A stretch of DNA of 20,870 nucleotides, taken from the IMG/VR virus record IMGVR_UViG_3300032323_003009, positions 1 through 20,870 of that record; one strand, 5' to 3'. The position numbers and the translations under genes were made by a program. This DNA is from a virus. The notes under the pieces are model-generated. The model did no database searches and was not told where the DNA came from. It saw only the letters and a program-made list of their open reading frames with translations. Below, piece by piece: positions 6,101 through 20,870 of the stretch (positions are counted from its first letter, which is position 1; every line of letters starts with the position of its first letter).

Positions 6101-9100
6101 CAGATTCGTAACTTTGACAAGGAATTGGGAACTGTTAACAGCAGTGTGTCAGGTATCAACAAAGAGATTAACAGTGTTACAAAAAATTTAGGTGTAAGTG
6201 CAGTCAATTCTACTATACAACTTAATAAGCAATTAAAAGAGGTTCTTAGCACCGTAGAAAAGATAAATAAAGTAACTAGTAATCAGCAGCTACAACCACC
6301 AAACGGTAGTGGTAATATTCAACCTCAAGACTTCCAAACTTTGGATAATCTGAATATACCTCAATCTAGTCTACCCACGCCCACCCCAGTCGCTACTAAC
6401 ACGCTTAAAGAAGTATTGGTGGCTGGAATTGATTCAGATATACCCGTCCAGTTGTATGCAAATAAACCAAAAAACAAAGATAATTCATTTAACTTAACTC
6501 CATTTACCGGTTCTGCTGCTAATCCATTTTTGTTGCCAAGCACTTTTGTTTCTCCCATTGCTAATAGAAGTCTTGCTGACTTGTTAAACACCAAGTATGG
6601 ACATCAAGAGTTATTCGGTTACAGAAATAGCAAAGCTTTGACCCTTGGTAGAAACGCTGGGGTTAATCGTCAATCTAGTGTAGTAGCATCTTTGGGTGGA
6701 ACTGCTTTCTTAGAAGGTAACGCTTTGAAGATAGCTCACAAGGCTGCTGATGGAAAGATTGTTTATGTTGTCTATCAAGGGTTAGATCCTAAATCTATTA
6801 CCAAGAATTTGCGTATTAAAGGGAAAGAAAAAGTAGAAGTAAGTTCAGGGCAAATAATTGGTAATCCTAGCAGCGATAAATTTAAGTTTAGTATTGCTGT
6901 TGGAGAACCTGGAAAAGTTACTCAAAACCCATACAAAAACCCTTTAACGTTTGTTAGGGATATTTATCGGGCTAACCAAAGACAACCCATTAATCCACTT
7001 CAGTGGATTAACAGAAATCTTATTAATCGCACGGACCCTGTAGTTAATTCTTTAGGATTGACCCCATATACCGGAGTCATAAAAACATCTAACGTACCTA
7101 CTATAAAGCCCAATGTACGTAGTCAAAATGATATATCAAAATTTGATATATCAAATTGGGCATTACAAATTGAAAGGCAAGCAAAAGTAAGACTTGAACC
7201 TGCTGCAACAAAGGTTGTGACAGAACTTAATAGACGACTTCCAAAGCCTAAAAACAATCAAGGTACTGGTAAACAACAAACAAGAACTAATCAGGGTACT
7301 GGTATTACAGAAGCAGATTTGATGAGTGTAGTTCCTCAAAATACAATCGGTAAAGCCACACCAGTAAATTACAAAACTGGTGTTAGACCAACTAATGCAA
7401 GCACAGGTAGCAATGCAGGTGGTAACAGCCAAAGCAAGCAACAGGACAAACTTTTAGTATCACCTATTCCAGGTAAAACCCTTGCTGATATTCTTAAATT
7501 TCCGTACACTGATGATGAAAAAAAAGACGGAGCATATTACGGTTCAGCGCGTGGGGTAAATAGAAACACTCAACTTAAAGCACCTATTAGCGGTAAAGCT
7601 ACTTTGTATATTTACAAAGGTGAAAGCAATGAAGACCTTGCATCTGTAGAGATTACAAAAAATATTAACGGCAAACAAATTGCAGTAATGCTTACCAATC
7701 TTTCTCTTGATAGCATCAAAAAGAACTTAGGTAATTTGAAGCATCAAAGTAGTTTGAATATCAACGCAGGGAAACCAATTGGTACGCCACAGCAAAACCG
7801 TGATGTTTATATTGGTGCAAAGGTTAAAGGTAAAGACGTAACTATAGTGGACTTTATCAAAAATTCTCAAAGCTACGGGTTTAGTCCACAGGGGTTGACA
7901 ACAACACCATCAACAGGGACGGGAAAAACACCAGGGACGGGAAAAACAACTGGTCAACCCAAGATTATACCACAGCCACAAGTACCTAACATAGCAGGAA
8001 AACCAGGCACAAATCCTTTGGTTGAGCAAAAGAAAGGAGGATACGTAGACCCTAATACATTACAACGTTTTACTACAAAAGCTGCTGAAGAAGCTGCTAA
8101 AGCTGCTGCACGAAGAGACGCTGCGGCTAGGCTGCAAAGGCAAGAAGAAATAAGCGCAAAGCTGGTAGAGTTTCAAAGAAATTTGTCCAATCTATTAAGA
8201 GATACCAATAAAGGTATCAGAGATGAATCACTACAGGCTGCACAAGATATTAATAATGCTTCTGAGTATATCCAAGGGCTGTTAAATCCCAACGCTTCTG
8301 ATAAGGAAAAATTTGCTACTGACTTCCAAAAACTAAAGAATGAATACCAAGCAAGGATTAATGAACAACAGAATATTATTGAGTCTACAAGAGCGCCTCT
8401 TGCTGAATTAGCAAGGGTTGATGAGCTAATTGCTGCTGCTCAGAGAGAAGGTATAGATGCGTCAGGGCTAAAAAGATTAAGAGACGAAGTGTACAGAGTC
8501 GTTAAAGCAAGAGAACGAACAGCGATCGCACTCCGCAATATGTACACCAAAAACAAGCAAGCGGTTTTTGATAAGTATGTAAGCAGATTTAAAGAGGAGC
8601 AATCAGATAAAGATGCTGATAGAAAAGCTGCTCTCTTGGGTGTAAATATCAGTCAATTAAAACTACGATTGGAAGAACTGAGAGGAATTCAAGCAATTGA
8701 TCCTTTGAACCCTGAATTACTCAAGATACCTGACCTTGAAGCAAATATAGCTGAATTAGAATTAACTCAAACAACCCTCCAAAAAATAGCTGCACTTAGA
8801 CGCGAGTGGCGACAATCAGGTGGTAAAAACATGGGTAAAGATGTTTATGACAAAAGAATGCAAGATATTAAGAATACTGTCACAAAACAGACAGGAATCA
8901 TTGAAAGAAAGCGTCGGACTGACAATATATTAGCTTATGTTAGTCGTGAACTTGGATTGATAGATAAAGGGGCTGCTGAGAGAGAACCAATTACCAAGGG
9001 TTTACAGCTTGATAATAGTCTGTTCGCTGCTAGGAATAAGAACGGTTTAGTTAATATTATTAACTTTGAAAATGAAGCATTAATTAAACAAAAAGACTTG

Positions 9101-10390
9101 ATGGACTCTTACAGAAAAACTAGCTTAGAGACTCAGCGCGACTTTAAATTATCTTCTGATGAGAGAATCACAAAACGCCTAAGAAATGCTATGAATTTCC
9201 AAAAAGAATTAAATGTTTTAAAAGTGGAAACTGAGTACCAAAAGGCTGCTGGTGAGATTAAAAATAGACAGGTGATTGTAGATGTGGAAGTGAGATTATC
9301 TGATTCTGCTAAGGCTATTTTTGAAAGCAAGAGTACCATTAAGAAGAATTTGGGATTGGAGTTGGCAGGGGAAAGATTAGACCGTCAGAACGCAATCACG
9401 ACTCAAGGGAATGAGTATAAGCGAAAACAAAATGAAACTAGTCAATTTATTCTGGACAATAACCTGACTGACTCACAGGCTTATGTGCTGAGAAAGAATA
9501 ATGAAATAGAGAATGATTTAAAACTACGTACCATTAAATCCCAGTTCTCGGAGTTTGCACAAGTGATTAAGTCTTTTGTGTCTGGATTTAAGAGTTCTTT
9601 TAAAGAGTTTCTACTCAGCACAGAAGACACAGGTACAGCACTACTGAATTTAGCTAAAGGTATAGGTAAGTCTGTACTGGATACTTTGGCGGAAATGGCA
9701 TCTAAGCGTGTAACGGACTTGCTTTTTGGTTGGATGGGTGGCACTGGGCTTAACCCAGCAACGGAATTATCTTTTGCTGCTCAACAGTTAACACAAGCGG
9801 CGATCGCATTACAAACAGCGGCAGGTACTTCGGCTTTAGACATGGGTAGTTTTGATGGATTTGCTGGTTTTGGTGATATTGCTTCTTTTATCTCTACAGG
9901 TATGGAGTTCTTAAATCCTTCTACTTTTGGGGCTGCTGACTTTGGTTCAGCTATTTTATCGGGATTTGCTAAAGGTGGGATGATTGATAAAGATACTCTT
10001 GGGAAGATTCAGAATTTTGCCAACGGGGGAATTGTGGGAACAATGAATAAGGAACGGGCTATGACAGGGAGGACACCGCACCTGGTGGTCGCTTCTGAAG
10101 GTGAGCGCGTTCTTAATCACAAGGAAACTGCTATTTGGAATAAGTTGCAATCAGGTATTTCTGGATTTGCTGATGGTGGTATTGTTGGTGGTGGCTCTGG
10201 GGATATTGCTTCTAAGATTGGTGGTAGCACTACAACAGTGAATGTGCCTGTAAGTGTGTCAGTGAATGAAGGTTCTGATGTAGATGGGGCTAGATTGTCA
10301 CAGACTGTACAAGCTCTTGTTAGTGATGGGATTAGGCGGGAAATGCGTCCTGGTGGTTCTATCCGACGGGGTAATCCTTACAATCGGTAA
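2..10390 (+). CDS. Giant phage tail tape-measure protein (5'-partial, at least 3462 aa)
   Basis: Lambda gpH-type protein that sets tail length and fills the tail tube. The frame is open from the left edge; the first usable start is TTG at 476, but there is no stop before it, so the true start probably lies outside the window. Residues below count from 476. Order: proline-rich repeats (nt 2-454); an unplaced region with hydrophobic stretches (1-600); the canonical tape-measure N-terminal domain (about 612-800, including KGKLSMEELRQQLGEKFPPA near 706); hydrophobic and Ala-rich segments (800-1260); coiled coils (about 1370-1950); two degenerate M23-like domains (about 2024-2145 and 2328-2462); a second coiled-coil region (about 2540-3030); and a C-terminus with FANGG, FADGGIVGGG and an ASEGERVL motif typical of tape measures. 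Four HIP1 sites lie inside. At about 1.5 angstrom per residue the visible chain would span roughly 0.5 micrometre, an upper limit because folded domains do not contribute. The family is secure; the start is unknown. Confidence 0.93.
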   Translation, partial: SPFTKIQPSITTLQSPFTKIQPSITTLQSPFTKIQPSITTLSPTTLQTQIYPNLPQPPTTLQTQIYPNLPQPPTTLQTQIYPDLPNPLPPLPPNPNPPNPLPPLPPNPNPPNPLPPLPPNPNPPNPNPPNPLPPLPPNPNPPNPLPPLPPTIPTLITDLVANVFGAINDSIRGGGYASLGQRMRNAVNAGLFSIADTLRQPLHQKLLSQTRDVLPWFLKFIPSILLLLPKLKIAAPLIGGLALALGNSIAKNLLENNLIKEGGFLTRILSSITNINLPATPGHKSGNVLSALQDISSPVPHFMGINPLLSIGLGVASPLYNSYSGILGLDKSLDPKQKAPTIKKILQDQTETNREQIGLKDNTKGFEATKDFLDNVTKNILNGVLDKVNLPLIPTSVLQALIGRKISQRLDGTTKSIYALGAERSKAEQLLEKTIQSGRTGVDKRTDILTRQALRERGVSKTVRDAMTPDQLATAREKILGTPIDLTPNERKLLQAMGDTELLQKQLGTKKAERRLDALTANVLKERGLDSSARRQIKQDQSGYGFSDFRQKLANDPRTGSFIGRFTEAYATNDQDAIKGLVKEGLTRAGMSAKKIDSIDPNLLDTATAGLMATLTGLQSKFKEKGFDMGKALAKGFKDSMVNLANTKDDLEYNAKKAIGQAGFGDSIKVIIGRLSRGHVATQSHFQEMYNNMGAGVKKAMFGGSKEGDEMFPNVLQFFGSIATTLAPITTMIGAITPLLLPLAPIITGIGMAVNMVAPHVAKLIDGIQRVEVLQRRFQFLGGSKEGGIAEFKYAKDIANKLNVPSEVAANSYSQIAIAAKDSKMEGQGVKELFEGITSSLSALGINGQDASLVFMAYTQILAKGKLSMEELRQQLGEKFPPAMAVFAKAMGVSVPEMNALVASGSVLSQDILPKVAKVLKEDYGNAAANQAGGLVVALNKLGNVGFEAVSIFTDKVGGLLSAPVDFFATVAGLLVGSLNQLLPLAQSFMIGFAATISIGLTIILSKFKPFLVAIGSLQNFLLATFSTITTNMMPMIVGVTADVADGWLGAEKDLMQNMFDGFTNLIVSTFSTIDSIMRSASNNTVSFTSVFGNLIQGAEQAGSAMDGLKNIFASVFKILPSGILEILAILFMIEQGSGLAAMALGPAILSFGKGAIGMLQGVRVAFFSFMRSAALAVELLLTSMSKASAATDLLGVKTKVNIAILNGALVLLQALLSKLVIVYAIIMFSKGDFSDPLRESMNKTTADVNKQLTDVRSNINKTTEAFNNATKSVEKLGNTITNALPAKGVQLDVRSLWGGGDYKWDDAVRDTNAKYRPGSTGAIAGPSAMDFLGSVALGLGGAGVGIAAKAAAASAANAASAAVAAKAFTLGTTVVQPAAVGIIPRILAMLVPMFASPLAPWIAAIAGLIAAIGLATVALNTFAPQLTKKQLDFIEGKTDAKGNAITDGSGLKLTNTINAKKVGERLDHSSQQALKAAVDDQLNTERLKEFLNTYGLTGKVDHYIAPPLAKMTDIQKKDFESDLSTVKIDKEIANVKASLQRIEEEAEDNTPAAISRQRAMPKYTDTKKQLTELEKNRNLMQYAYMANANNKSDMDEIDNKIKDKEKEFKIAEAAYDKKRRKKSDLDFSSSWDSEEYKILIKNKKELKKLQEDKSQLQTNINATAKRRVNFNAIEKFNKQLEKAVSDYVNVDQQLKTKPSDALRAQAGKLKEEVKRLQKEIEREKSEFSSPLAGLRNSLKLKQDEATNIAADMSPEMTPEIRASRLANNKKQQELLKKSISVVEKFEPPDLSQALYTKASTALADAETKLDVNLSKNKIVSNQAQTKLYGTTLTSQQIAPDLSARQIADLNFQQKELQSSINTKQQSLMQLRQAEVLNVSNIADIQEKIQKLEQDLRKDREQVSQNTLEIVKAQREARQSLIDQTKQVAEYYRTSLRESQAAAIEFGKATNNIKSQQFATKLKQALVGAGNNIFTNFIDSVIGLFQQLTEIENLRLDRQKQKLDYENNIQDILIKVTEMQRSLPGKIVPFSLDQIRNFDKELGTVNSSVSGINKEINSVTKNLGVSAVNSTIQLNKQLKEVLSTVEKINKVTSNQQLQPPNGSGNIQPQDFQTLDNLNIPQSSLPTPTPVATNTLKEVLVAGIDSDIPVQLYANKPKNKDNSFNLTPFTGSAANPFLLPSTFVSPIANRSLADLLNTKYGHQELFGYRNSKALTLGRNAGVNRQSSVVASLGGTAFLEGNALKIAHKAADGKIVYVVYQGLDPKSITKNLRIKGKEKVEVSSGQIIGNPSSDKFKFSIAVGEPGKVTQNPYKNPLTFVRDIYRANQRQPINPLQWINRNLINRTDPVVNSLGLTPYTGVIKTSNVPTIKPNVRSQNDISKFDISNWALQIERQAKVRLEPAATKVVTELNRRLPKPKNNQGTGKQQTRTNQGTGITEADLMSVVPQNTIGKATPVNYKTGVRPTNASTGSNAGGNSQSKQQDKLLVSPIPGKTLADILKFPYTDDEKKDGAYYGSARGVNRNTQLKAPISGKATLYIYKGESNEDLASVEITKNINGKQIAVMLTNLSLDSIKKNLGNLKHQSSLNINAGKPIGTPQQNRDVYIGAKVKGKDVTIVDFIKNSQSYGFSPQGLTTTPSTGTGKTPGTGKTTGQPKIIPQPQVPNIAGKPGTNPLVEQKKGGYVDPNTLQRFTTKAAEEAAKAAARRDAAARLQRQEEISAKLVEFQRNLSNLLRDTNKGIRDESLQAAQDINNASEYIQGLLNPNASDKEKFATDFQKLKNEYQARINEQQNIIESTRAPLAELARVDELIAAAQREGIDASGLKRLRDEVYRVVKARERTAIALRNMYTKNKQAVFDKYVSRFKEEQSDKDADRKAALLGVNISQLKLRLEELRGIQAIDPLNPELLKIPDLEANIAELELTQTTLQKIAALRREWRQSGGKNMGKDVYDKRMQDIKNTVTKQTGIIERKRRTDNILAYVSRELGLIDKGAAEREPITKGLQLDNSLFAARNKNGLVNIINFENEALIKQKDLMDSYRKTSLETQRDFKLSSDERITKRLRNAMNFQKELNVLKVETEYQKAAGEIKNRQVIVDVEVRLSDSAKAIFESKSTIKKNLGLELAGERLDRQNAITTQGNEYKRKQNETSQFILDNNLTDSQAYVLRKNNEIENDLKLRTIKSQFSEFAQVIKSFVSGFKSSFKEFLLSTEDTGTALLNLAKGIGKSVLDTLAEMASKRVTDLLFGWMGGTGLNPATELSFAAQQLTQAAIALQTAAGTSALDMGSFDGFAGFGDIASFISTGMEFLNPSTFGAADFGSAILSGFAKGGMIDKDTLGKIQNFANGGIVGTMNKERAMTGRTPHLVVASEGERVLNHKETAIWNKLQSGISGFADGGIVGGGSGDIASKIGGSTTTVNVPVSVSVNEGSDVDGARLSQTVQALVSDGIRREMRPGGSIRRGNPYNR
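131..256 (+). repeat. 45-bp tandem repeat, 2.8 copies, coding (15-residue unit)
   Basis: Copies begin at 131, 176 and 221, differing by single bases (for example aac to gac in the last). In frame the unit reads TTLQTQIYPNLPQPP. The TTLQ core is shared with the preceding 42-bp unit, which suggests a common ancestral module. Confidence 0.93.
257..454 (+). repeat. 39-bp tandem repeat, about 4.7 copies plus a 15-bp partial unit, coding (13-residue unit)
   Basis: Units start at 257, 296, 335, 389 and 428; a 15-bp partial unit sits at 374-388. In frame the unit reads NPLPPLPPNPNPP, an extended proline-rich linker or stalk. All length changes are multiples of three, so the tape-measure frame is preserved. 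Confidence 0.95.
6549..6922 (+). other. Degenerate M23 (LytM-like) peptidase domain 1 inside the tape measure
   Basis: Residues about 2024-2145 (counted from 476) follow the M23 plan: FGYR near the start, then a G-V-N motif, a VVASLGG strand, a KIAH...YVVYQGL strand pair and a GQIIG turn before the last strand. The metal and catalytic positions look replaced: the H-x-G-x-D site reads N2060-A-G-V-N2064, and the H-x-H site reads K2135-F-K2137-F. The fold assignment is by pattern and is an inference; loss of the residues is visible if the alignment is right. Confidence 0.6.
7129..7153. repeat. 25-bp perfect inverted repeat inside the tape-measure gene
   Basis: Two copies of TGATATATCA, itself a 10-bp palindrome, separated by AAATT; the whole forms 12-bp arms around one central A. 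It encodes a DISKFDIS peptide repeat. It may be only a coding duplication. Confidence 0.7.
7457..7861 (+). other. Degenerate M23 (LytM-like) peptidase domain 2 inside the tape measure
   Basis: Residues about 2328-2462 repeat the layout of the first domain: VSPIPGKTLADIL here against VSPIANRSLADLL there; A-R-G-V-N2362 at the metal-site position; an APISGKATLYIY strand; a NAGKPIG turn; and DVYIGAKV where HxHF-type residues are expected. The two copies have diverged strongly, so the duplication is old. The same Asp-to-Asn change (G-V-N) appears in both. Confidence 0.55.
7914..7949 (+). repeat. 18-bp direct repeat, 2 copies, coding (GTGKTP/GTGKTT linker)
   Basis: Copies at 7914 and 7932 differ only at the last base. 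They encode a Gly/Thr/Lys linker just after the second M23-like domain, consistent with an expandable flexible spacer. Confidence 0.9.
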
Positions 10391-10875: not shown

Positions 10876-12767
10876 AAACTGGGCAATATTGGTGATTTTG
10901 AATAATACTTAACACATTTACAGTTGGCTCGACACTGACAGTTCTCTCCTGGATTTGGTAATGTACCTATCTTTGCCCATCCCATACTGCTGTAACGGAT
11001 ACAGTCACTACAGCTATGACTAGCAGCTATAACCCGACGTTCCCATAAGTATCCATTTCTGCTATGCCCTTCTAGTTTACCATCTTCATAAAAATGTCTG
11101 GTTTTGTTGTAGTACATTTGCGCTCTAGCGGCTATCTGCGCTTCTGATAATTCACCACGGATAATTTCATTAGAGAAAGACCGCAAATATTGATATTGCA
11201 AGTTGAGTTTACCGCTTAGTTCAGCATGGTCGCGCCAGTCCATCTGTTTTAGTCCGCCTATACCAAGTGAGTATTGGTACAAGGAAACATCTCTGATTAG
11301 TTCTGCGGTTTGTCGTTCCCATGTACTGACATTGATTTTCCCTGCCAGTAAGTTGTCAGTGACTTTGTTGCCTAACTGTAGCGTGTCTGCTATGGCTTTC
11401 TCTGTGATTCTGACTACATCTTTCTCTCTGACAAATTGACCTTGTTTGTCGCCATTAGCGTACTGATATCTTTGGCTAGATGAGTTCCAATAAAAGCTAG
11501 TTGACTCTTGGGCGGCTTTAATTGCTACCCTTTGGTACTTTTTTTCACTAGCTACCTCCTTAATCTTTTCCAATGGTGCTATTCCTGCTAGTTCCCTCAT
11601 TCTATTGATTACAGCTAAGTCGTCAATACTAAATGCGCCTGTGCTTATACAGTTATTGACAATATTTAAGAGTGATATCACATCTTCGTTGTTCTGTGAA
11701 TTAATAGGAAAAATCCCGTAATTTTCTTGTTCCCCAAGATTAAATTCAATCATGGGACGGATCACTTGTTCAATCAAGACATCCCCCACTAATTCCATCT
11801 GTGACTTGATGACTAAATCCAAAATACCCCTATGCCCAGCATTGAGGTTACTGTCACCACTACTAATTGCACCTGTACCTGTGACGGTTCTAGGCACTAA
11901 CCAGGACAGCATGATCATAGATTCTAAGTAGCCTAGGATGTTCATGAAGAAACTACCATCAGTCTCATGAGCGATCGCAAAGATATCATCAGCAATATCA
12001 ATCACTGCATAAGAATTATTTTTCATGTCATCTAAATTCTTAGACATAACATAAGCTTGGTTAAACAGCCTAGGCTCTCCCGTGGCAGGGTCTAAGAAAG
12101 CATACCCAGTTTCAGGATTAATCATAGTGACAGAGTTGTTGGCTGTGTCAGTTTTGGCTACCAGTAGTTTAGTGGCTTGTCTTTCTGATGCGATCGCCAT
12201 ACAAGCATTGACTATTTTCATTAATTCCCAGTATGGGTATGCTCTTCTACATATTGCTACTCCATAAGGGTCGCCTCCCAGTGCTAAGTATGGTTGATTG
12301 ATTAAATGAATACCGTTCTCATAAGGGATATAAATATCAGCATTTCTCATGTAGTGAACTGTTTTGATACTGCCGGAATATCCTTCAAACCAATAATAAC
12401 GCGGGTCTATGGTACGGATTTTGTCTAAATAAGCTACCCGTTTTTTGATGATGTAACTAACTTCTGAAAATGAACGTCCAAAGGGTATAAATGTCAAGAG
12501 TTCGGCAATTACGTTAGACCAACTTCCTTCCATCTGGTTGATGGATGACCTAACAAAATGTTCAATGTTTTCATCTGGATGTTGATATTTCCCTAGTAAA
12601 GATACACCTAATAATGTTCTTAAATCATTGGCTGCGGAGGCTACAGGGGAATCTTTGAGCATCTCCACATATTTATCTGTAATGTTTCTATCTGACTGTT
12701 GAATCATCCCAATCCAAGTGGAAACTAAGGCTTGAACTTTGGGAGACAATAAATTTGTATTTAACAT
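10872..12767 (-). CDS. Portal protein (Mu gp29/DUF935-like) fused to a MuF-like head-morphogenesis domain (631 aa)
   Basis: The portal forms the dodecameric ring at the head vertex through which DNA passes. Residues 1 to about 400 resemble the DUF935 portal family: a GDPYGVAICRRAYPYWELM segment (165-183), and a C-terminal portal part with GSFFMNILGYLESMIMLSWL (271-290), GTGAISSGD (297-305) and VIRPMIEFNLG (335-345). Residues about 425-620 form a separate domain resembling the MuF-type minor head protein often found next to portals in cyanobacterial phages, ending in a cysteine cluster C586-x2-C589, C610-x-C612, C616-x-C618 that could bind metal. In Mu these functions are two genes (29 and 30), so this is a fusion. 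The gene lies on the strand opposite to the flanking tail genes and heads a three-gene operon. Two HIP1 sites lie inside. Confidence 0.82.
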   Translation of the reverse strand: MLNTNLLSPKVQALVSTWIGMIQQSDRNITDKYVEMLKDSPVASAANDLRTLLGVSLLGKYQHPDENIEHFVRSSINQMEGSWSNVIAELLTFIPFGRSFSEVSYIIKKRVAYLDKIRTIDPRYYWFEGYSGSIKTVHYMRNADIYIPYENGIHLINQPYLALGGDPYGVAICRRAYPYWELMKIVNACMAIASERQATKLLVAKTDTANNSVTMINPETGYAFLDPATGEPRLFNQAYVMSKNLDDMKNNSYAVIDIADDIFAIAHETDGSFFMNILGYLESMIMLSWLVPRTVTGTGAISSGDSNLNAGHRGILDLVIKSQMELVGDVLIEQVIRPMIEFNLGEQENYGIFPINSQNNEDVISLLNIVNNCISTGAFSIDDLAVINRMRELAGIAPLEKIKEVASEKKYQRVAIKAAQESTSFYWNSSSQRYQYANGDKQGQFVREKDVVRITEKAIADTLQLGNKVTDNLLAGKINVSTWERQTAELIRDVSLYQYSLGIGGLKQMDWRDHAELSGKLNLQYQYLRSFSNEIIRGELSEAQIAARAQMYYNKTRHFYEDGKLEGHSRNGYLWERRVIAASHSCSDCIRYSSMGWAKIGTLPNPGENCQCRANCKCVKYYSKSPILPSL

Positions 12768-12825
12768 CTTTAAGCTATTAATTAATATTAATTATATGCT
12801 ATCATAAACACAAAGTATATTTATT
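12768..12825. promoter_or_regulatory. Divergent AT-rich promoter region between the portal and tail-tip operons
   Basis: These 58 bp separate divergent starts (portal ATG at 12767, K-like ATG at 12826). On the minus strand a perfect TATAAT lies at 12796-12791, about 24 nt before the portal start, but no good -35 box is seen. On the plus strand only weak boxes such as TATGCT (12795-12800) or TATATT (12816-12821) are present. The position demands promoters; exact boxes are uncertain. Confidence 0.45.
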
Positions 12826-13590
12826 ATGACAATGATTTCTGATTTAATTAAGGAACAAATCAAATCTTTAATTATTAGTGACTCTATTGAGTCTTGCGGG
12901 CTGGTTATTCATAATCAGGTTGTTTCTTTACCCAATTCTCACAGTGACCCTATTAATAACTTTGCTATTGCTTCTAAAGATTTAGCTAGATTTAACTATT
13001 CTCAAATCACAGCTTTTTGGCATACCCACTATAATGATACCCAACCCGGATATTTTACTTACACTGATATTGAGATGAGTCGTCAGACTCAAAAACCAAT
13101 TATTCTTTATCACACAGTATTTGATATGTGGGACTACTATGAACCAAATAATCCTAACCCGTTTCCACTTAATTTTATAAATTACACGCCTAAACAAATA
13201 GAATTTTATCAAGGTATTCCCTTTTACTGGGGACGCTCTGATTGTTTCTCTATTGGGCGCTGTTATTTTTTGGGTATGTTTGGGGTAGATGTAGGCGACT
13301 TTCAACGTTCTCATCTTGATAATTTTCCGCCAGACAACTATCAATGCCCTTTTGACTTTGACCACCAACTACGATTAATGCCTATAGGGACTAAAGCAGA
13401 AGTTCATGATGTATTTGCGATCGCATTGAGGGGAGGGTTACAGGTCAATCATGCTGCTATTTTAGTGGATGCAGAAAAGAATTTAATCCTTCACTCTATG
13501 TCACAAAAATCTCTGAGTAAAATTGAACCTTACAATAGATACTTAAGAGAAAGAACCATTAGCCATTACAGACTAAAATGCTTATGCTGA
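12826..13590 (+). CDS. Tail-tip assembly protein, lambda K-like (JAMM + NlpC/P60), 254 aa
   Basis: Two enzyme-like domains as in lambda gpK, which helps assemble the tail tip and may open the cell wall. The JAMM/MPN domain covers about residues 10-115: E22 in an ESCGLVI strand, H66 and H68 in FWHTHYND, and D81 in TYTD. The usual S-x-x-D serine position is T78, a conservative change. The NlpC/P60 domain covers about 130-254: probable nucleophile C140 in YWGRSDCFSIG, H209 in VNHAAIL, and H223 in ILHS as a further polar candidate. The start at 12826 is followed by a second ATG at 12832; neither has a strong Shine-Dalgarno site. First gene of the rightward tail-tip operon, overlapping the I-like gene. 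One HIP1 site lies inside. Confidence 0.88.
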   Translation: MTMISDLIKEQIKSLIISDSIESCGLVIHNQVVSLPNSHSDPINNFAIASKDLARFNYSQITAFWHTHYNDTQPGYFTYTDIEMSRQTQKPIILYHTVFDMWDYYEPNNPNPFPLNFINYTPKQIEFYQGIPFYWGRSDCFSIGRCYFLGMFGVDVGDFQRSHLDNFPPDNYQCPFDFDHQLRLMPIGTKAEVHDVFAIALRGGLQVNHAAILVDAEKNLILHSMSQKSLSKIEPYNRYLRERTISHYRLKCLC

Positions 13591-14180: not shown

Positions 14181-16007
14181 ATGGGATTTGCAAATAGAGC
14201 GCTTTCCAAAAACCCAATTACTGACCCAATTACCGCAACTTCTAATGATTATGTCAAGTTGCTATTAGCTATTGGTGAAGGCGAATTGGAAGGGATGACT
14301 TCTTTATCTAATATCTATCTTGATAAAACACCGTTAATTAATAGTGATGGTTCAGCTAATTTTCTTGATGTATCTGTTGACTATAGCATCGGTGGACCCA
14401 ATCAGTCTAATGATTCTTTTGTGACAAACTTGGGCATATCAAATAGTAATGTCAATACTGTTAATACAGAGATAAAAAATATTGGCAATGGGACAACAAG
14501 GCAAATCTCAAATGCTGATATTACTGCGATTAAAGTCCGCCTAAGTCTTCAAATGCAGTACAACGATAAAAATGGTGATGTTAGAAAAACTGATTGTTGC
14601 TTCAAAATTTTTATTAAAGAAGGGGGAGGTGCGTTTGTAGAAAGATACTCTACTTGCATCAACGCTAGGTACGCTGACCCAGTAACTTTTGAGTATTATT
14701 TTCCTGTTGATCCTACTCAAAGCAGCTTTCAAGTCCGGGTGCAAAAAACTGTACCCAATGAACCGCCCAACCCTGACAACAGAGAAAGTAGAGAAAGTGT
14801 TAATCTGAAATGGATAGACTACTCAGAGATTAATAATGACCGGATTCTATTCACCAATACAGCATTACTAGCTTTACAGTTTCCATCTAAAACTTTCCAG
14901 TCAATACCGGAAATTTGGATGAAACTAGGCGGGATTAAATGCAGAATACCTACTAACGCTACAGTTAACGCTACTGATAGAGGAACGGATTTTAGTGGTA
15001 GTTGGAATGGTGGCTTTTATCTACCTGCTAAAGCGACTGCTGACCCGGCTTGGATTGTCTATTATCTATTAACTGAGCCTAGATTTAAGTTGGGTATCCC
15101 AGAGGAGTATATTGATAAGTTTGCTTTGTATCAATGCAGTGTCTATAACAATGGGTATGTGGACAATGGCTATGGGGGATTAGAGAGAAGATTTTTGTTT
15201 AATACGGTTTTAGGCACGGGTGGGCAAGAAGTAGTTATAGAGATGATTCGTTCTATCTGCTCTACTATGTATGCTAAACCTTATTGGAACGGCACGCAGT
15301 TAAGCTTTTGGCAGGATAGACCGACAACTGCATTACCGAAGATATTAACTAATGCAGATGTAGAGGAGGGTAAATTTGCTTACCAAACTAAAGAGTTAAA
15401 TACTGTAACTACTGTGGCTAAAGTTTCTTATCAATCTACTATTGAAGACTGGGAACAAATACCAGAAATTGTAGAAGATCCAGCTTCTATTGATGGATAT
15501 GGAGTCCAAATTGAAGAATACGCTCTACTAGGAGAAACCCGACGAGGGGCTGCTATTCGGTCAGGGAGAAGGACTATTTTTAGTTCTTTGCCTAATAATA
15601 TATTTCTGACTTGTAAGGTGCGTGCGCGGGCAATGTTCTTTCAACCCGGTGATGTAATTCAAGTATCTGATAGTGCCAAAAACAAAGTCAGAATTGGTGG
15701 TTTAGTTTCCGCTGTAACTGGCACTAAAGTAACTTTAGACGCGCCTATAACGTTGACATCAAATACTAATAAAAAAATATATTTAACCCTTCCAGATGAG
15801 ACAGTAGTTGAAAGAACTATTACCAATGGCGCAGGAACTTTTACAGAGATTAATCTCGGTACACCATTGACTACATTACCGCAAATTCAATCACCATGGC
15901 AGATCATTGATACTAGCAATAAGGTACAATTGTACAGGGTCACTGATGTAGTCCCAGACTCAGAAAATAAGTCTTTATTTGAGATAACTGCTAAAACTTA
16001 TGGTTGA
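14181..16007 (+). CDS. Tail-tip hub / host-specificity protein, lambda J-like N-terminal part (608 aa)
   Basis: Central tail-tip protein of the J family. The N-terminus has the family pattern (LLLAIGEGELEGMTSLSNIYLDKTPL, about residues 27-52, a run containing the GEIxG and IYLDxTPL motifs). The middle holds beta-rich hub domains with PAWIVYYLLTEPRF-type sequence near 293. The C-terminal part contains ARAMFFQPGDVIQV (about 482-495) and ends in YRVTDVVPD...FEITAKTYG. Lambda J is about 1130 residues and continues past this point with FN3 and receptor-binding domains; here the frame stops and the continuation is the overlapping next gene (8-nt overlap, ATGGTTGA). No strong Shine-Dalgarno; the leader is AT-rich. 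Confidence 0.87.
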   Translation: MGFANRALSKNPITDPITATSNDYVKLLLAIGEGELEGMTSLSNIYLDKTPLINSDGSANFLDVSVDYSIGGPNQSNDSFVTNLGISNSNVNTVNTEIKNIGNGTTRQISNADITAIKVRLSLQMQYNDKNGDVRKTDCCFKIFIKEGGGAFVERYSTCINARYADPVTFEYYFPVDPTQSSFQVRVQKTVPNEPPNPDNRESRESVNLKWIDYSEINNDRILFTNTALLALQFPSKTFQSIPEIWMKLGGIKCRIPTNATVNATDRGTDFSGSWNGGFYLPAKATADPAWIVYYLLTEPRFKLGIPEEYIDKFALYQCSVYNNGYVDNGYGGLERRFLFNTVLGTGGQEVVIEMIRSICSTMYAKPYWNGTQLSFWQDRPTTALPKILTNADVEEGKFAYQTKELNTVTTVAKVSYQSTIEDWEQIPEIVEDPASIDGYGVQIEEYALLGETRRGAAIRSGRRTIFSSLPNNIFLTCKVRARAMFFQPGDVIQVSDSAKNKVRIGGLVSAVTGTKVTLDAPITLTSNTNKKIYLTLPDETVVERTITNGAGTFTEINLGTPLTTLPQIQSPWQIIDTSNKVQLYRVTDVVPDSENKSLFEITAKTYG

Positions 16008-16668
16008 CTTCTATGCTTTAGTTGAAACTAATATTGTTATTCCTGGCGACATTACTGTGGAAACTTTGCCAGTGGTTGCGTCACCACCAATTAATTTAAA
16101 ATCAGAATTGATTAAAATTAATTATGGAAACACTGATATTTATGCTTTATTAGCATCTTGGCAGCAACCACAAAAAGAAGTCATTAACAGCACTTTTACA
16201 GTTACTAGTATGACTTTTTTGGGAACAACAGCAACAGTGACTACAACACAAAATCATGGTTATAATACTAATGATTTAATATTAATTAAAGGGGCTACTC
16301 AATCAATCTATAATAATTATTATACTATTACTAAAATCAGTAACAACCAGTTTAGTTTTCCTTTTTCTGGATGGACTATTACCCCAGCCACAGGAACTAT
16401 TACCTGTACAAAAATAACCAATGAGTCTTACACTGACCGCTACAGTTTACAATACAAGAAAGCCCAAGATTCAGAATGGAGTAACCCTATTGAAACCTTT
16501 GAATTGTCCGCTAGATGGGATAACGTTAGTCCAGGGGATTATTATGTAAGAATAGCTGCTATTACCATTAATAATAAAGTTAGTGCTTATGTGCAATCAT
16601 TAAGTATTCCACAGGCGATCGCTAATTTTAGTAGTGGAAATTATACAAGTTTTACGGGAGAGTTTTGA
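16000..16668 (+). CDS. Split J C-terminal part: FN3 module with an inserted beta-domain (222 aa)
   Basis: The start MVDFYALVET matches the segment that follows the hub domain in unsplit J proteins, so this looks like the detached distal part of J. An FN3-like module begins with ASPPINL and YALLASWQQP (28-57) and resumes at YTDRYSLQYKKAQDSEW (144-160) through DNVSPGDYYVRIAAI (174-188). Residues about 65-138 interrupt it with a different beta-domain of the type TATVTTTQNHGYNTNDLILI...YNNYYTITKIS, a module I associate with other phage surface proteins. The C-terminus is short. Overlaps J by 8 nt and the M-like gene by 1 nt (TGATG). One HIP1 site near the end. Confidence 0.78.
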   Translation: MVDFYALVETNIVIPGDITVETLPVVASPPINLKSELIKINYGNTDIYALLASWQQPQKEVINSTFTVTSMTFLGTTATVTTTQNHGYNTNDLILIKGATQSIYNNYYTITKISNNQFSFPFSGWTITPATGTITCTKITNESYTDRYSLQYKKAQDSEWSNPIETFELSARWDNVSPGDYYVRIAAITINNKVSAYVQSLSIPQAIANFSSGNYTSFTGEF

Positions 16669-17030: not shown

Positions 17031-17594
17031 ATGGCACAGCCTTATATTGGTTCTCAGGGAAGTATTGAATACAGAGAAGCGTCTGGTAATGGGACTTTGA
17101 TATCACCTTATATTCCTCAGTTTTCTTTGTCTGGATTAGCTTATTTTTCTTCTGCTAACATAACCAGGACTAGTTCTATATCTTATAGTGCTAATGATGT
17201 TTATGGCGGTGTGTTTCAACTGCAAAACATTGGACCTAGTGGAGATTTTATATATTTAAATAGCATAAGCGTTGTCTTTAATGCAAGCTCACTAACAGGC
17301 ATAAGTGCTTGTGAAGTTTATTTGTATAATGCAAGTCCGCAGTCTGGATTTGCTGACAATGCTGCTTTTAATGTTCCATTGATAGACAGAGGATCACTTT
17401 TAACTTTAAGTGGAATAGGCTTAAACCCAATCTTAACTAGAGGTGGTGGTACTGTTGTAGCTGAAACAATACTTGTAAATAGACTACTTAAATTAGCAAC
17501 CAATAGCACTTCTTTATGGGGATATTTGGTGACTTTAGGTACAGGATTGATTGCTGATAGTGCAACGATTTCTGTATATTCTCATATCCGTTAA
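17031..17594 (+). CDS. Phage tail-fibre/structural protein, MAQP paralogue 1 (187 aa)
   Basis: An N-terminal segment MAQPYIGSQGSIEYREASGN with SPYIP (residues 1-29) is joined to a beta-rich C-terminal domain of about 145 residues: ANDVYGGVFQLQNIGPSGD, then EVYLYNASPQSGFADNAAF and SLWGYLVTLGTG. This C-terminal pattern recurs in phage tail and fibre proteins, where it is probably an exposed jelly-roll-like domain. The next gene is a paralogue with the same N- and C-terminal parts. Likely a distal tail or adhesion protein made from the same operon; the exact role is inferred. Confidence 0.75.
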   Translation: MAQPYIGSQGSIEYREASGNGTLISPYIPQFSLSGLAYFSSANITRTSSISYSANDVYGGVFQLQNIGPSGDFIYLNSISVVFNASSLTGISACEVYLYNASPQSGFADNAAFNVPLIDRGSLLTLSGIGLNPILTRGGGTVVAETILVNRLLKLATNSTSLWGYLVTLGTGLIADSATISVYSHIR

Positions 17595-17631: not shown

Positions 17632-18486
17632 ATGGCACAACCAATTTTAGGAATCAAAGGAACAGCGGAATATGTCAAAGCTACAGGAGAAGGTACACCA
17701 GAATCTCCTTACATTCCCGTTGTTCAGGTAGAAGGTGGTGGTACAGGGGGAGGCGGAACTACTACTGTGGACTTCGGCACTAAGATCACTGATTCCACTA
17801 TGCCCGCAGGTGGTGTAGGTAATCTAGGGTGGCTATCTGCTATTTGGAGAACAATTACCGACAGATTGCCTTCACTGATAAACAACAGATTACCAGTAGA
17901 CGTAACAAATCAAATTAGCTTTGGCACTCAAATTACTGATGCAACCATGCCCACGGGTGGGGGAGGTATCCTGGGGTGGCTATCTGCTATTTTTAGGACA
18001 CTAAGCAACGGAACTGGATTTGTCAGTACAGCAACCATTCAAAGAACGTCAGGTAATACATCTTATCAACTCAATGATGTATATGGCTCAATAGTCCAAT
18101 TGTCAAATATTGGACCTAGTGGGGGTAATATTTTTATTAATAATATAAAAATCATGTTTAACACTTCCACGCCCCCTGCTGGAATGACTAGCCTTGTAAT
18201 TTATTTATACAGTGCTTCACCCCCATCTGCGATCGCTGACAATTCCCTTTTTAATGGCGCATCTGCTGATAGAGATTTTCACTTAACTGAAGATGGAATT
18301 ACCTTATCAGTTACAACGATGAGAGGTGGTGGTAGCTTTTTTGCTATGGCATCAAACATCAACAGGCAGATTAAATTAGCCGCAAATAGCACTTCTTTAT
18401 GGGCATACGTAGTAACTCCAAACGCATTTACACCCACAAGCAGTGCAGAGACAGGTACAATCACTATAAATTCTTTCTTGGCATAA
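17632..18486 (+). CDS. Phage tail-fibre/structural protein, MAQP paralogue 2 with internal repeats (284 aa)
   Basis: Paralogue of the preceding gene. It shares the N-terminus (MAQPILGIKGTAEY...ESPYIP, 1-29) and C-terminal domain (LNDVYGSIVQLSNIGPSGG, then VIYLYSASPPSAIADN, RGGGSFF and SLWAYVVTP). Between them are a Gly/Thr linker and two copies, starting at residues 46 and 95, of an FGTxITDxTMPxGGxGxLGWLSAIxRT module joined by DRLPSLINNRLPVDVT, a motif I associate with phage fibre stalks. An in-frame upstream ATG exists at 17551, but it lies inside the preceding gene, and the match of MAQP to the paralogue fixes the start at 17632. One HIP1 site in the C-terminal domain. Confidence 0.78.
   Translation: MAQPILGIKGTAEYVKATGEGTPESPYIPVVQVEGGGTGGGGTTTVDFGTKITDSTMPAGGVGNLGWLSAIWRTITDRLPSLINNRLPVDVTNQISFGTQITDATMPTGGGGILGWLSAIFRTLSNGTGFVSTATIQRTSGNTSYQLNDVYGSIVQLSNIGPSGGNIFINNIKIMFNTSTPPAGMTSLVIYLYSASPPSAIADNSLFNGASADRDFHLTEDGITLSVTTMRGGGSFFAMASNINRQIKLAANSTSLWAYVVTPNAFTPTSSAETGTITINSFLA
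17767..18018 (+). repeat. Two 147-bp-spaced coding repeats (GWLSAI modules)
   Basis: Copies begin at 17767 and 17914, in frame and 49 codons apart. The first 30 or so residues of each are closely similar (FGTKITDSTMP against FGTQITDATMP; LGWLSAI in both). They form a repeated spacer in the fibre-like protein. Confidence 0.8.
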
Positions 18487-18487
18487 C

Positions 18488-19306
18488 ATGAGAAATTCTA
18501 CTAGAATGGTGGTGCTTCGTCGCCAAAGTTACGCTCTTGATTTAATTCCTGTGGTAGCTGCATCTGCTTACTCGCTAAGACGACTTTCCAGATCTTGGAC
18601 TGGAGCGGCGATAAGAGTAAGAAGAAGTAGTGACAACGCTGAAATAGATATAGGTTTTATTGGGGAAGGTTTAGATGTAGTTACACTATTGGCATTTGTA
18701 GGTACTGGGAATGGGTTTGTAGTTATTTGGTATGACCAGATGAGTAATAGACACGCTACACAGACAGCACCATCCAATCAGACTCAAATTGTGACTAATG
18801 GGGTATTGGAGACTGCAAACGGCAGGCCAGCCATTCGATTTAACGGTATTAACACTTTTTTCAATGGTGTACCGCTTTTGCTTTCTGAGTTTACATTGAC
18901 AATGGTGTTGAATGACGTAACACAAGCGTCTAGTATTCGCTATCCCATTGGGACTAACGACACGTTCACTGGCAGGGGGGTGTTTAGTTCGTTTCAGTTG
19001 AACCCCAACAGATCATTGGGATACGTTTCTGATTCTAATTTAGTAGTGCAAACAAACTTTTTGCCGACCATAGGACAGCCTTATGTGGCCAGTTTAACAA
19101 CCAGCGCAACAAACACAAACATTTGGGCTAACGGTGGCAATAATACAAGCGGTTCAAGGCTGACCCTGAAGAACCTGTTCATTGGGCAACGCGGAGACAA
19201 CAATTGGTTTTATGATGGACACAACTCAGAAACTATAGTTTACACCACCAACCGCGAAGAACTTGAGCGCAACCAAGGCGCGTATTATTCAATTGCAATT
19301 TCATAA
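18488..19306 (+). CDS. Arabinofuranosidase-B/LamG-like carbohydrate-binding phage protein (272 aa)
   Basis: The segment AYSLRRLSRSWTGAAIRVRR (27-46), followed by SSDNAEIDIGF, LLAFVGTGNGFVVIWYDQ (67-84) and NGRPAIRFNG (111-120), matches the phage-borne domain related to the alpha-L-arabinofuranosidase B catalytic fold, a concanavalin/lectin-like jelly roll. The rest (GYVSDSN..., FIGQRGDNNWFYDGHNSETIVY) fits the same fold. In phages such proteins sit at tail tips and probably bind surface glycans; catalysis is not shown. Start at 18488, 1 nt after the upstream stop; ATG at 18506 is an alternative. Sampled 60-base rows have about 45-52% G+C against about 18-37% in flanking genes, which suggests separate acquisition. 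Confidence 0.75.
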   Translation: MRNSTRMVVLRRQSYALDLIPVVAASAYSLRRLSRSWTGAAIRVRRSSDNAEIDIGFIGEGLDVVTLLAFVGTGNGFVVIWYDQMSNRHATQTAPSNQTQIVTNGVLETANGRPAIRFNGINTFFNGVPLLLSEFTLTMVLNDVTQASSIRYPIGTNDTFTGRGVFSSFQLNPNRSLGYVSDSNLVVQTNFLPTIGQPYVASLTTSATNTNIWANGGNNTSGSRLTLKNLFIGQRGDNNWFYDGHNSETIVYTTNREELERNQGAYYSIAIS

Positions 19307-19443
19307 ACTTTTCCAAAAGGGGCAAACATAAACAAATTTATTGCACCGGAAATCGCAAGCAATTTGAATACTGCCTCCCCTGAAAATCAAATTTAATTGC
19401 CAAGCGACTCAGTAACCATTTTCAAAATTAATCTTCCTTAAAC
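19307..19443 (+). other. Non-coding gap after the lectin-like gene
   Basis: 137 nt without a convincing gene. An interrupted hairpin (AAATT..TTGC / GCAA..AATTT, 19334-19365, 10-base loop) is present but lacks a following T-run, so it is a weak terminator or RNA-structure candidate only. This is the longest gap in the rightward tail-tip operon. Confidence 0.4.
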
Positions 19444-19884
19444 ATGACAAAACAACAATGGCTGCTTTCTCAAATCGCACAATTCCCTGAACTATCCGCT
19501 AGGGAATTAACCGGAAAATTGAATCAAAAAAAGTTAGTTCCCAATCCTAAACCACAGGAGCAAATACAAGTAACTCCTAAATTGGAAGACATAATTAAGA
19601 TTGGGATTGACAAAAACACAATAAATGTTGTTGAGACAAAAACTTACGAAAGATTTGTAGAATCAATCCAAAGCAAGTCAATGGATTTTGCATTAGCAAA
19701 TCTTATGATTTTGAAAGAAGGTGAGTTAATTTCAGGAGAAATCTTTAATGCTATTGTTGCGCTACTGCAACGGACTGAACCCGATCCAACTTATCAACTT
19801 TTTGTAGAAACAAGTGATGCAGAATTAGCGGGATTTGATGTTGTTTGTGTCCATGAGATTGAGGAATTAAAAGCGGAATTATGA
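19444..19884 (+). CDS. Phage protein of unknown function (146 aa)
   Basis: No family is recognised with confidence. The protein starts MTKQQWLLSQIAQFPELSARE and reads as mostly helical: an N-terminal helix pair (residues 1-30), a Pro/Lys/Gln linker (33-45), then ETKTYERFVESIQ and a helical region with LANLMILKEGELISGEIFNAIVALLQ (80-110), and an acidic end. Its stop overlaps the start of the L-like gene as ATGA, so it is coupled to it and is probably a tail-tip or fibre-associated factor. It has no signal peptide or membrane segment. Confidence 0.7.
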   Translation: MTKQQWLLSQIAQFPELSARELTGKLNQKKLVPNPKPQEQIQVTPKLEDIIKIGIDKNTINVVETKTYERFVESIQSKSMDFALANLMILKEGELISGEIFNAIVALLQRTEPDPTYQLFVETSDAELAGFDVVCVHEIEELKAEL

Positions 19885-20513
19885 CATTAATTTCAGAAAA
19901 TCAATTATTAGATTCTGAGATTTTTATTGATTTAATTCAAGTCAAAACTTCAGAATTTGATATTAAGATTTGCAACTATGGAACGGTATCTTTTGGTGGT
20001 GTTTCTTACCAAGGATTTCCATGTCAGCTAAGTAGTTTTAGTCGTTCAGGTGAGAGTGTAGAAGCGCGGGCTTCCTTGACTATTTCTGACATCTCTGGAC
20101 TAGTGGGAAATATCATTGATAATTATTCAGTCATCAAAGCAGAAGTGGTTGTTAAACAGACGTTACCGATGTTTTTGGATGGTCAACCCACAGCAGATGC
20201 TAGTCAGTTTTTCCCGTTGAATTTAGAGATCAGTCAGTATACAGGTGAATATCAAAATCAATTTGTGTTCACCCTTTCTCCTTATTCTTTAGAGAGAAAA
20301 AAATTACCTGCTAGGACATACTCAAGAAGATGTCAGTATATTCTTGGAGACGATGATTGTCAAGCACCTAACAATAGAAGTTTTGATATTTCTGGCAACA
20401 TAACAACCTTTGCTAATCGGGCTTGTCGCAAGGATTTAGACGCTTGTAAACAGTATCACGACAATACTTTAAGATTTGGTGGTTTTCCTTCAGTAAGTAG
20501 AATTAGAGGTTGA
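19881..20513 (+). CDS. Minor tail protein, lambda L-like with four-cysteine (Fe-S) C-terminus (210 aa)
   Basis: Lambda gpL family tail-tip protein. Residues 1-140 form the N-terminal beta-rich part (IDLIQVKTSEFDIKICNYG, GVSYQGFPCQ, ARASLTISDISG). The C-terminal domain has four cysteines, C151, C160, C182 and C189 (RRCQYILGDDDC ... RACRKDLDACKQ), followed by LRFGGFPSVSRIRG; the FGGFP ending is a family hallmark. Lambda gpL is reported to carry a [4Fe-4S] cluster on its C-terminal cysteines, and the spacing here is compatible. The upstream ATGA overlap couples it to the 146-aa gene. In lambda L precedes K; here it lies about 6 kb downstream of K. Confidence 0.87.
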   Translation: MTLISENQLLDSEIFIDLIQVKTSEFDIKICNYGTVSFGGVSYQGFPCQLSSFSRSGESVEARASLTISDISGLVGNIIDNYSVIKAEVVVKQTLPMFLDGQPTADASQFFPLNLEISQYTGEYQNQFVFTLSPYSLERKKLPARTYSRRCQYILGDDDCQAPNNRSFDISGNITTFANRACRKDLDACKQYHDNTLRFGGFPSVSRIRG

Positions 20514-20542: not shown

Positions 20543-20870
20543 ATGGATACAATTGATGAATTGATGGTAATTTTGACGGGAGAAATTACGGAACTCAAGC
20601 AAGAAATATTAGAAAGTCTAAATATCTCATCATTGAATAAAAGACTCTTAATCCTTGAAAATCAAGCTGTTTCTGCATTGGATGAAGTAAAAAAAATAGC
20701 TGATTTTAAACAAGAGTTAAATTTGCTTTCAGTCAAAGAACAATTGGGTTTAGAGATAGAGGAACTCAAACTAGCTAACAACCAATTATGCTTAGGCAAA
20801 GAACAATTGGGTTTAGAAATAGAGGAATTAAAATTAAACAACAATCAATTGTGTCTAGATAGAGAACGAT
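20543..20870 (+). CDS. Coiled-coil protein, 3'-partial (at least 109 aa)
   Basis: The frame opens at ATG 20543 and runs off the right edge without a stop. An AAAGGA stretch at about 20527-20533 may serve as ribosome-binding site. The sequence is helical and Leu/Glu/Lys-rich with heptad spacing (MDTIDELMVILTGEITELKQ...), then a 21-residue repeat, KEQLGLEIEELKLANNQLCL, occurs twice and a third copy begins. Twenty-one residues is three heptads, so this is probably a multimeric coiled-coil stalk, for example of a tail fibre or a fibre-associated protein. The C-terminal, possibly receptor-binding, part is outside the window. Confidence 0.75.
   Translation, partial: MDTIDELMVILTGEITELKQEILESLNISSLNKRLLILENQAVSALDEVKKIADFKQELNLLSVKEQLGLEIEELKLANNQLCLGKEQLGLEIEELKLNNNQLCLDRER
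20735..20870 (+). repeat. 63-bp tandem coding repeat, 2 copies plus start of a third
   Basis: Units start at 20735, 20798 and 20861. Differences between the two full units are mostly at third codon positions (for example gag/gaa, ctc/tta), so the protein repeat is conserved by selection rather than freshly copied. The array continues past the right edge. Confidence 0.9.

Follow-up and report, generated by a model that had tools for sequence, protein, structure and literature searches.

The gene at positions 18488 to 19306 (plus strand) of a 20,870-base tailed-phage fragment most probably codes for a tail adhesin which tailed phages of cyanobacteria can exchange, with a short putative docking tag, a cargo presumed to bind host glycan, and replacement of the whole gene between phages; we put the probability of this reading at roughly 0.8. 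Comparison with related phages demonstrated gene-precise exchange, conservation of the tag, cargo unrelated in sequence, remnants of earlier occupants and mosaics within the gene. The fragment is an entire IMG/VR record and is referred to below as the window, and the gene is referred to as the slot gene. It is an open reading frame of 272 codons starting with ATG which fits these coordinates exactly, and on the evidence of the reading frame, Pfam, PHROGs, an AF2 model and a fold search its 272-residue product is a GH54/ConA-like putative adhesin.

Genes in the window are arranged in the order giant tape-measure-like gene, Mu-type portal (opposite strand), K, I, J, FN-like, M-like, jR1, jR2, slot gene, a gene for a 146-residue protein and L, where the names tape measure and M are our own and were given by position, length and the look of the sequence. 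Pfam and PHROGs located the slot gene between tail proteins J, M and L. The tail tip protein J (14181-16007, plus strand; PF24801 and PF13550 in Pfam, phrog_31 at E 4e-112 in PHROGs) belongs to the conserved backbone and served as our yardstick, and the minor tail protein L (19881-20513, plus strand; PF05100 in Pfam, E 4e-23) is the conserved backbone gene which closes the variable region. Tail genes extend from 476 to 20513, with tape measure, portal (minus strand), K, I, J, FN and M followed by the variable region and L, an order which we take to differ from that of lambda. The tagged protein jR2 (17632-18486, plus strand) lies directly upstream of the slot gene and may act as shaft or port, and jR1 (17031-17594, plus strand) is a jR2-related protein with a similar N-terminal tag. 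The N-terminal stretch of about 27-29 residues common to jR1 and jR2 (17031-17120 and 17632-17720) was also found in proteins of about 580 residues in contigs L008, L012 and L031, and from its sequence looks like a second docking tag. Tandem repeats were present at both ends of the record (1-450, periods 42, 45, 39 and 54; 20734-20867, a 63-nt repeat), and a repeat-rich stretch was observed at 8277-8699 of L002 near the place matching the end repeats of the window (L002, L009, L036 and L117 are one contig). Comparison of the tape measure (476-10390) with positions 1-4161 of L010 gave 47% identity in part of the middle and 90% at the end, and a second variable region may therefore sit inside this gene. 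With respect to the host, nine HIP1 octamers were counted in the window versus 0.10 expected from base composition. HIP1 is a marker of cyanobacteria. A cyanobacterial host is indicated by these sites and by related phages, CL131 among them; neither the J alignment nor that of the 146-residue protein found any relative when scanned against the genome collection.

A scan with J returned 30 loci, and nine contigs besides the window (L003, L007-L012, L029 and L031) carried a J which was at least 95% identical over the covered part. These nine are partly dependent, in that L003 and L009 carry identical copies of the slot gene and the same matches were given by L010 and L011. The slot gene was present in only two of the nine (L003 and L009, 93% identical to the window), two others (L010 and L011, the latter terminating within the gene) had a propeller-type gene exactly in the slot, and the remaining five had neither the slot gene nor the gene for the 146-residue partner, nor a close match to the C-terminal half of jR2, and instead carried long tagged proteins or fewer genes. 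The first-pass annotation had named vertical inheritance in all relatives as the observation which would count against acquisition, and this is not what the nine contigs display. L010 was 98% identical to the window in J, 99% in the partner gene, 99% in L and 92% in jR2, while its slot had no DNA match to the slot gene, and no relative of the slot gene was found elsewhere in its 44-kb contig. Across seven aligned loci the edges of the exchange were consistent: upstream shared DNA reached ATGAGA or the first slot codons and restarted at the ATG of the partner gene. As a different protein occupies the same place in phages whose neighbouring genes are nearly identical, the slot gene looks like a traded plug-in part for altering attachment. 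Its earlier description as a recently acquired receptor-binding cassette is well supported from sequence relatives, rather than from G+C, as far as an exchangeable cassette is concerned; recent acquisition by this phage is plausible, although it cannot be dated.

The propeller-type gene of L010 contains seven repeats at 126-132 nt spacing (12405-13206), the inner ones 93-96% alike. Its monomer model is a beta-propeller of moderate confidence (pLDDT 70.2, pTM 0.72) with WD40 and designed propellers as best PDB matches, and a Pfam search of the repeats gave only chance-like matches. The propeller of L015 has one blade fewer than that of L010 and, with repeats so nearly alike, blade number seems changeable by recombination. 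Among the 26 J-type loci listed, eight had slot gene plus partner gene, 15 had neither, one (L028) had the partner gene alone and two were cut. Where the slot and partner genes are missing, an 84-residue gene (MQQTGFVYLLKEDELYIAKSY...) lies before L (L008 7405-7659, L012 11631-11885, L031 13185-13439), where it may serve the long tagged protein as a partner.

As delineated by these comparisons, the module comprises a tagged protein (the C-terminal half of jR2), a variable slot gene and the 146-residue partner, whose gene (19444-19884, plus strand) lies downstream of slot genes, was recovered by an alignment scan from 77 viral loci and, to judge by linkage, may have a role in assembly or attachment. 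Nine of the 77 loci had no anchored slot gene: L150-L152 begin at the partner gene, L132, L145, L176 and L179 are cut, and the others are L130 and L134. The first seven of these were not assessable, which leaves 70 assessable loci, and in 68 of them the slot gene begins with the tag (consensus MRTSTRMVVL, lenient pattern). At L028/L130 the partner gene is present and no open reading frame is found in the slot. The tag of the window (MRNSTRMVVLRR, 18488-18523, plus strand) is poorly ordered in the model and common to slot genes with unrelated cargo, which is consistent with a docking role. Fifty-six distinct occupants were compared, namely that of the window plus 55 starting with MR and differing in sequence, and these were sorted by our own motif rules into GH54/ConA-like (34), AYITxVE (7), LamG (6), propeller (5), LRR-like (2) and CBM-like (2) classes. 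The names LRR-like and CBM-like come from the look of the sequence, and modelling covered two folds, ConA-type and propeller. One relatives scan kept 80 of 538 relatives.

Pfam searches with occupants of LamG type (L013), LRR-like type (L026), AYITxVE type (L154) and CBM-like type (L159 and L170) returned no family. The partner gene gave no meaningful match in Pfam, PHROGs or the PDB (best solved chain Far1, E 0.35), and jR2 alone had no match in the PDB. The first-pass annotation had suggested a search for the gene in unrelated phages. The trio also sits in phages with another tail, an example being the complete genome of CL131, which has no match to the J or portal of the window. In ten records outside the close J family, nine of which may be fragments, a match to J was observed in one (45%) and to the portal in three (26-30% identity). 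Weak relatives of the partner gene (26-28% identity) were also observed in Nodularia phages (L194-L197), three genes after the major tail protein and away from slot genes.

Exchange has left traces downstream of the slot. In L159/L182 a CBM-like occupant (54.8% G+C) is followed by a 175-base gap with two pieces of a GH54-like gene, the last 61 nt being 92% identical to L172 and 48 nt 92% identical to L192. L134 has undergone a deletion but retains 115 nt from the tail of an LRR-like gene, with 98% identity to L026. The gap 3' of the slot gene in the window (19307-19443) is 137 bases in length, and its frame-2 translation, which contains a stop, aligned to seven LamG tails with a score of 47, reached by one of 1000 dinucleotide shuffles. 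This result comes from six occupant classes tried, the shuffles per 1000 reaching the pooled score being 1 for LamG, 25 for propeller, 66 for LRR-like, 82 for other, 379 for GH54-like and 657 for AYITxVE. With single tails, the number per 2000 was 10 (L013), 57 (L016), 576 (L014), 68 (L010), 1838 (L026) and 339 (the window's own tail). A DNA-level search of six gaps gave no match for those of the window, L168 and L125. On these alignments the window gap probably holds an older 3' remnant of a LamG-type occupant (19345-19419, plus strand), and such a remnant is the likely reason for the length of the gap. A terminator was rejected as the explanation, with no terminator-like site found versus 1.3 expected by chance; promoter-like sites numbered one (18478-18507) versus 3.7 expected.

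Exchange was also observed within the gene. Its PF09206-like hat segment (about residues 13-85; 18524-18742, plus strand) is exchanged in relatives separately from the ConA-like body (about residues 86-272; 18743-19303, plus strand), which is delimited by the model, the fold search and the mosaics and is the presumed glycan-binding part. Twelve of 595 pairs were at least 95% identical in the hat but below 50% in the body, and three pairs displayed the reverse; L135 and L161 are 100% identical in the hat and 34% in the body. In comparison with L009, the slot gene had 23 nonsynonymous and 9 synonymous changes (dN/dS 0.78, from this one phage pair) versus 43 and 166 for ten other genes pooled (Fisher p 1.8e-8), and the contrast with the FN gene alone was non-significant (p 0.087). 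Import of a foreign allele was rejected as the source of this divergence, as the synonymous divergence of 0.049 was similar to that of the neighbours (jR2 0.029, partner gene 0.033).

Base composition was the main evidence of the first-pass annotation, which had described a GC-rich gene in an AT-rich operon. At 43.0% G+C the slot gene is indeed the richest of the 13 genes of the window, and its third-position G+C (GC3, 39.2%) is likewise the highest, but the difference is mild, with 38.5% in the window and 42.0% in the gene directly upstream. The 60-base rows which had been counted by hand were correct (45.0% at 18541, 51.7% at 18961, 50.0% at 19141, 36.7% at 19501 and 18.3% at 16261) but were picked from the tails of the spread: 20.7% of all rows match or exceed that at 18541 in G+C, 4.3% that at 18961, 6.6% that at 19141 and 99.7% that at 16261. 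The full calculation that had been proposed, with sliding windows and codon usage, confirmed a contrast of moderate size. Among 819-base windows, 5.8% reach the G+C of the slot gene, and when synonymous codons were resampled from 11 other genes its z values were +3.24 (G+C) and +3.29 (GC3). Other genes also deviate by 2-3 SD, upward for the tape measure (+3.19/+1.95) and the portal (+2.54/+2.82) and downward for jR1 (-2.98/-2.59), FN (-2.63/-2.01) and M (-2.60/-2.31), so the contrast of the slot gene is real but part of a wider spread. The remark that the longest gap of the operon follows this gene was borne out, the other same-strand gaps from K to L measuring -13 to 37 bases. Slot occupants were richer in G+C than the rest of their own locus in 53 of 56 distinct cases, whereas the swapped-in propeller gene of L010 matches its surroundings (37.0% versus 36.5%; GC3 low at 14-15%). 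Composition is therefore a weak pointer and was rejected as the main argument for exchange.

With respect to the slot protein, Pfam matched PF09206 (ArabFuran-catal) at E 4e-7 and 29.9 bits (cut-off 25), a match limited to residues 15-101 and profile positions 5-92 of 315, which is less than the full-length GH54 catalytic domain; in the genome search the same family scored 23.9 bits, below the cut-off of 25. Nearly the whole length of the protein matched phrog_10356, a virion structural protein which PHROGs places in the category head and packaging instead of tail (E 1e-19), a point against the tail reading. An NCBIfam search and a phmmer search of the PDB with the single protein gave no match, and a 50-row profile matched GH54 in the PDB (E 7e-8). 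The AF2 monomer model, built with 50 related sequences, had pLDDT 88.5 and pTM 0.87, with residues 1-10 poorly ordered (mean pLDDT 48). This beta-sandwich model superposed on GH54 arabinofuranosidase with Z 23.0-23.3 and rmsd 2.8-2.9 over 249-251 residues at 16-17% identity. Weaker matches were GH43 and sialidase accessory or lectin-type domains (Z 15-18), and near these, at rank 8, was the tailspike of cyanophage Pan3 (Z 17.4).

Two readings of the slot dispense with exchange between phages, and both appear very improbable. If the slot gene coded for an unremarkable minor structural protein, inherited vertically and with a G+C set by its amino acids, the richness of most slot occupants would find a simple account. 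As stated, this reading is refuted by the nine relatives with near-identical J, seven of which are missing the slot gene and two of which have the propeller-type gene in its place; the GC3 of the gene is moreover above amino-acid need, and intragenic mosaics also speak against it. Variation by a local process of mutation or inversion, such as phase variation or a mutagenic retroelement, could account for the surplus of nonsynonymous changes in the pair with L009, yet those differences are spread along the gene (9 of 19 in coil versus 47% coil). The alternatives in the slot are unrelated in sequence and found in separate phages, and the 44-kb L010 contig holds no second copy, which again argues against a local source.

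A third reading accepts the exchange but takes the protein for a GH54-type virion glycosidase which trims host polysaccharide rather than a plain lectin, and this we consider unlikely. The top fold match and the PDB profile match are both to GH54, and D237 of the window falls about where a weak, non-significant alignment places the GH54 GGDN stretch. The sequence match is however confined to the N-terminus, three scanned relatives score below the PF09206 cut-off, and other genes found in this slot are unrelated to it in sequence. We take D297 to be the second catalytic acid of GH54. E221 is named in the title of the GH54 structure 6SXR. Among 50 relatives, compared without residue-level superposition on GH54, no pair of acids was invariant beyond residue 105, the sole invariant acid there being E248, which LamG-type rows without a hat also possess; position 260 was E in 31, and D was present at position 123 in 30, where the window has T, and at position 237 in eight. 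With only one invariant acid in this part, a lectin-like adhesin appears likelier than an enzyme on the model. The label lectin/arabinofuranosidase-like given at first holds for the fold, while enzyme activity is unsupported.

For the exchangeable adhesin we propose that the first 10-12 residues form the docking tag and fit the phage tail, probably at the end of jR2, and that the remaining GH54/ConA-like beta-sandwich probably binds a host surface or sheath glycan, as suggested by its fold, its position among tail genes and its relatives. The 146-residue product, through its linkage, would help seat or assemble the adhesin. As comparison shows, phages replace the gene through an exchange whose edges are the starts of the slot and partner genes; this can leave the 3' end of the old gene behind (seen in L159/L182, probable in the window), and hat and body are also exchanged separately from each other. 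A broader proposal, which we hold tentatively and at rather less than even odds, is that a mobile, dedicated adhesin socket is built from the end of jR2, the tag and the partner gene. Such a socket would be a common port which accepts several unrelated domains through the 10-residue tag, is overwritten in place so that 3' remnants keep a record of earlier host-binding parts, and spans cyanophages with otherwise unrelated tails.

Modular receptor-binding proteins, for example O-antigen tailspikes of E. coli phages, have in the portions consulted of PMC10408124 a conserved N-terminal anchor and an exchanged C-terminal receptor-binding domain. The module resembles these in its place in a tail-gene cluster, in an N-terminal stretch common to the variants which presumably anchors them, in distal exchange, and in transfer across phage groups. 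Unlike those systems, it has a common anchor of no more than about 10-12 residues, and exchange replaces a complete gene, from one gene start to the next. Its cargo falls into six sequence classes, two of which (ConA-type and propeller) were confirmed by models, and it further differs in its partner gene and 3' remnants. The modular receptor-binding proteins are the known kind that comes closest to the module. With GH54 alpha-L-arabinofuranosidase B (1WD3, 6SXR; PF09206) the slot protein shares the catalytic-domain fold and the N-terminal sequence motif, but it has a single domain, shows no acid pair conserved among 50 relatives in its second half and occurs in a phage tail context. The tailspike of cyanopodophage Pan3 (9VYH) has a similar beta-sandwich over 214 residues, but with rmsd 6.0 and 14% identity. 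The arrangement recurs in gp25-gp27 of Aphanizomenon phage vB_AphaS-CL131, which correspond in this order to the C-terminus of jR2 (48%), the slot gene (43%) and the partner gene (47%), in a genome otherwise differing in J and portal as described above, with gp26 annotated as alpha-L-arabinofuranosidase. The virion proteome of CL131 comprises 23 proteins, and ORF025-027 are unnamed in the available excerpt of the main text (PMC6293099). Excerpts of PMC9608196 describe the tail fibre gp24 of myocyanophage Pam3 with its chaperone gp25, a cyanophage fibre with a phage-encoded helper, from which the partner gene of the window differs in having no meaningful match to solved chains. In titles and opening lines of abstracts on cyanophage receptor-binding proteins, anchor transfer, fibre variation and remnants, and propeller adhesins, as well as on phage arabinofuranosidases, no description of the module was found.

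The slot provides a clear natural example of whole-gene tip exchange in cyanobacterial phages, with edges of single-gene precision. A short tag combined with very different domains would allow receptor tests for each cargo and the prediction of host shifts from metagenomes, and the remnants would let past occupants of the slot be read.
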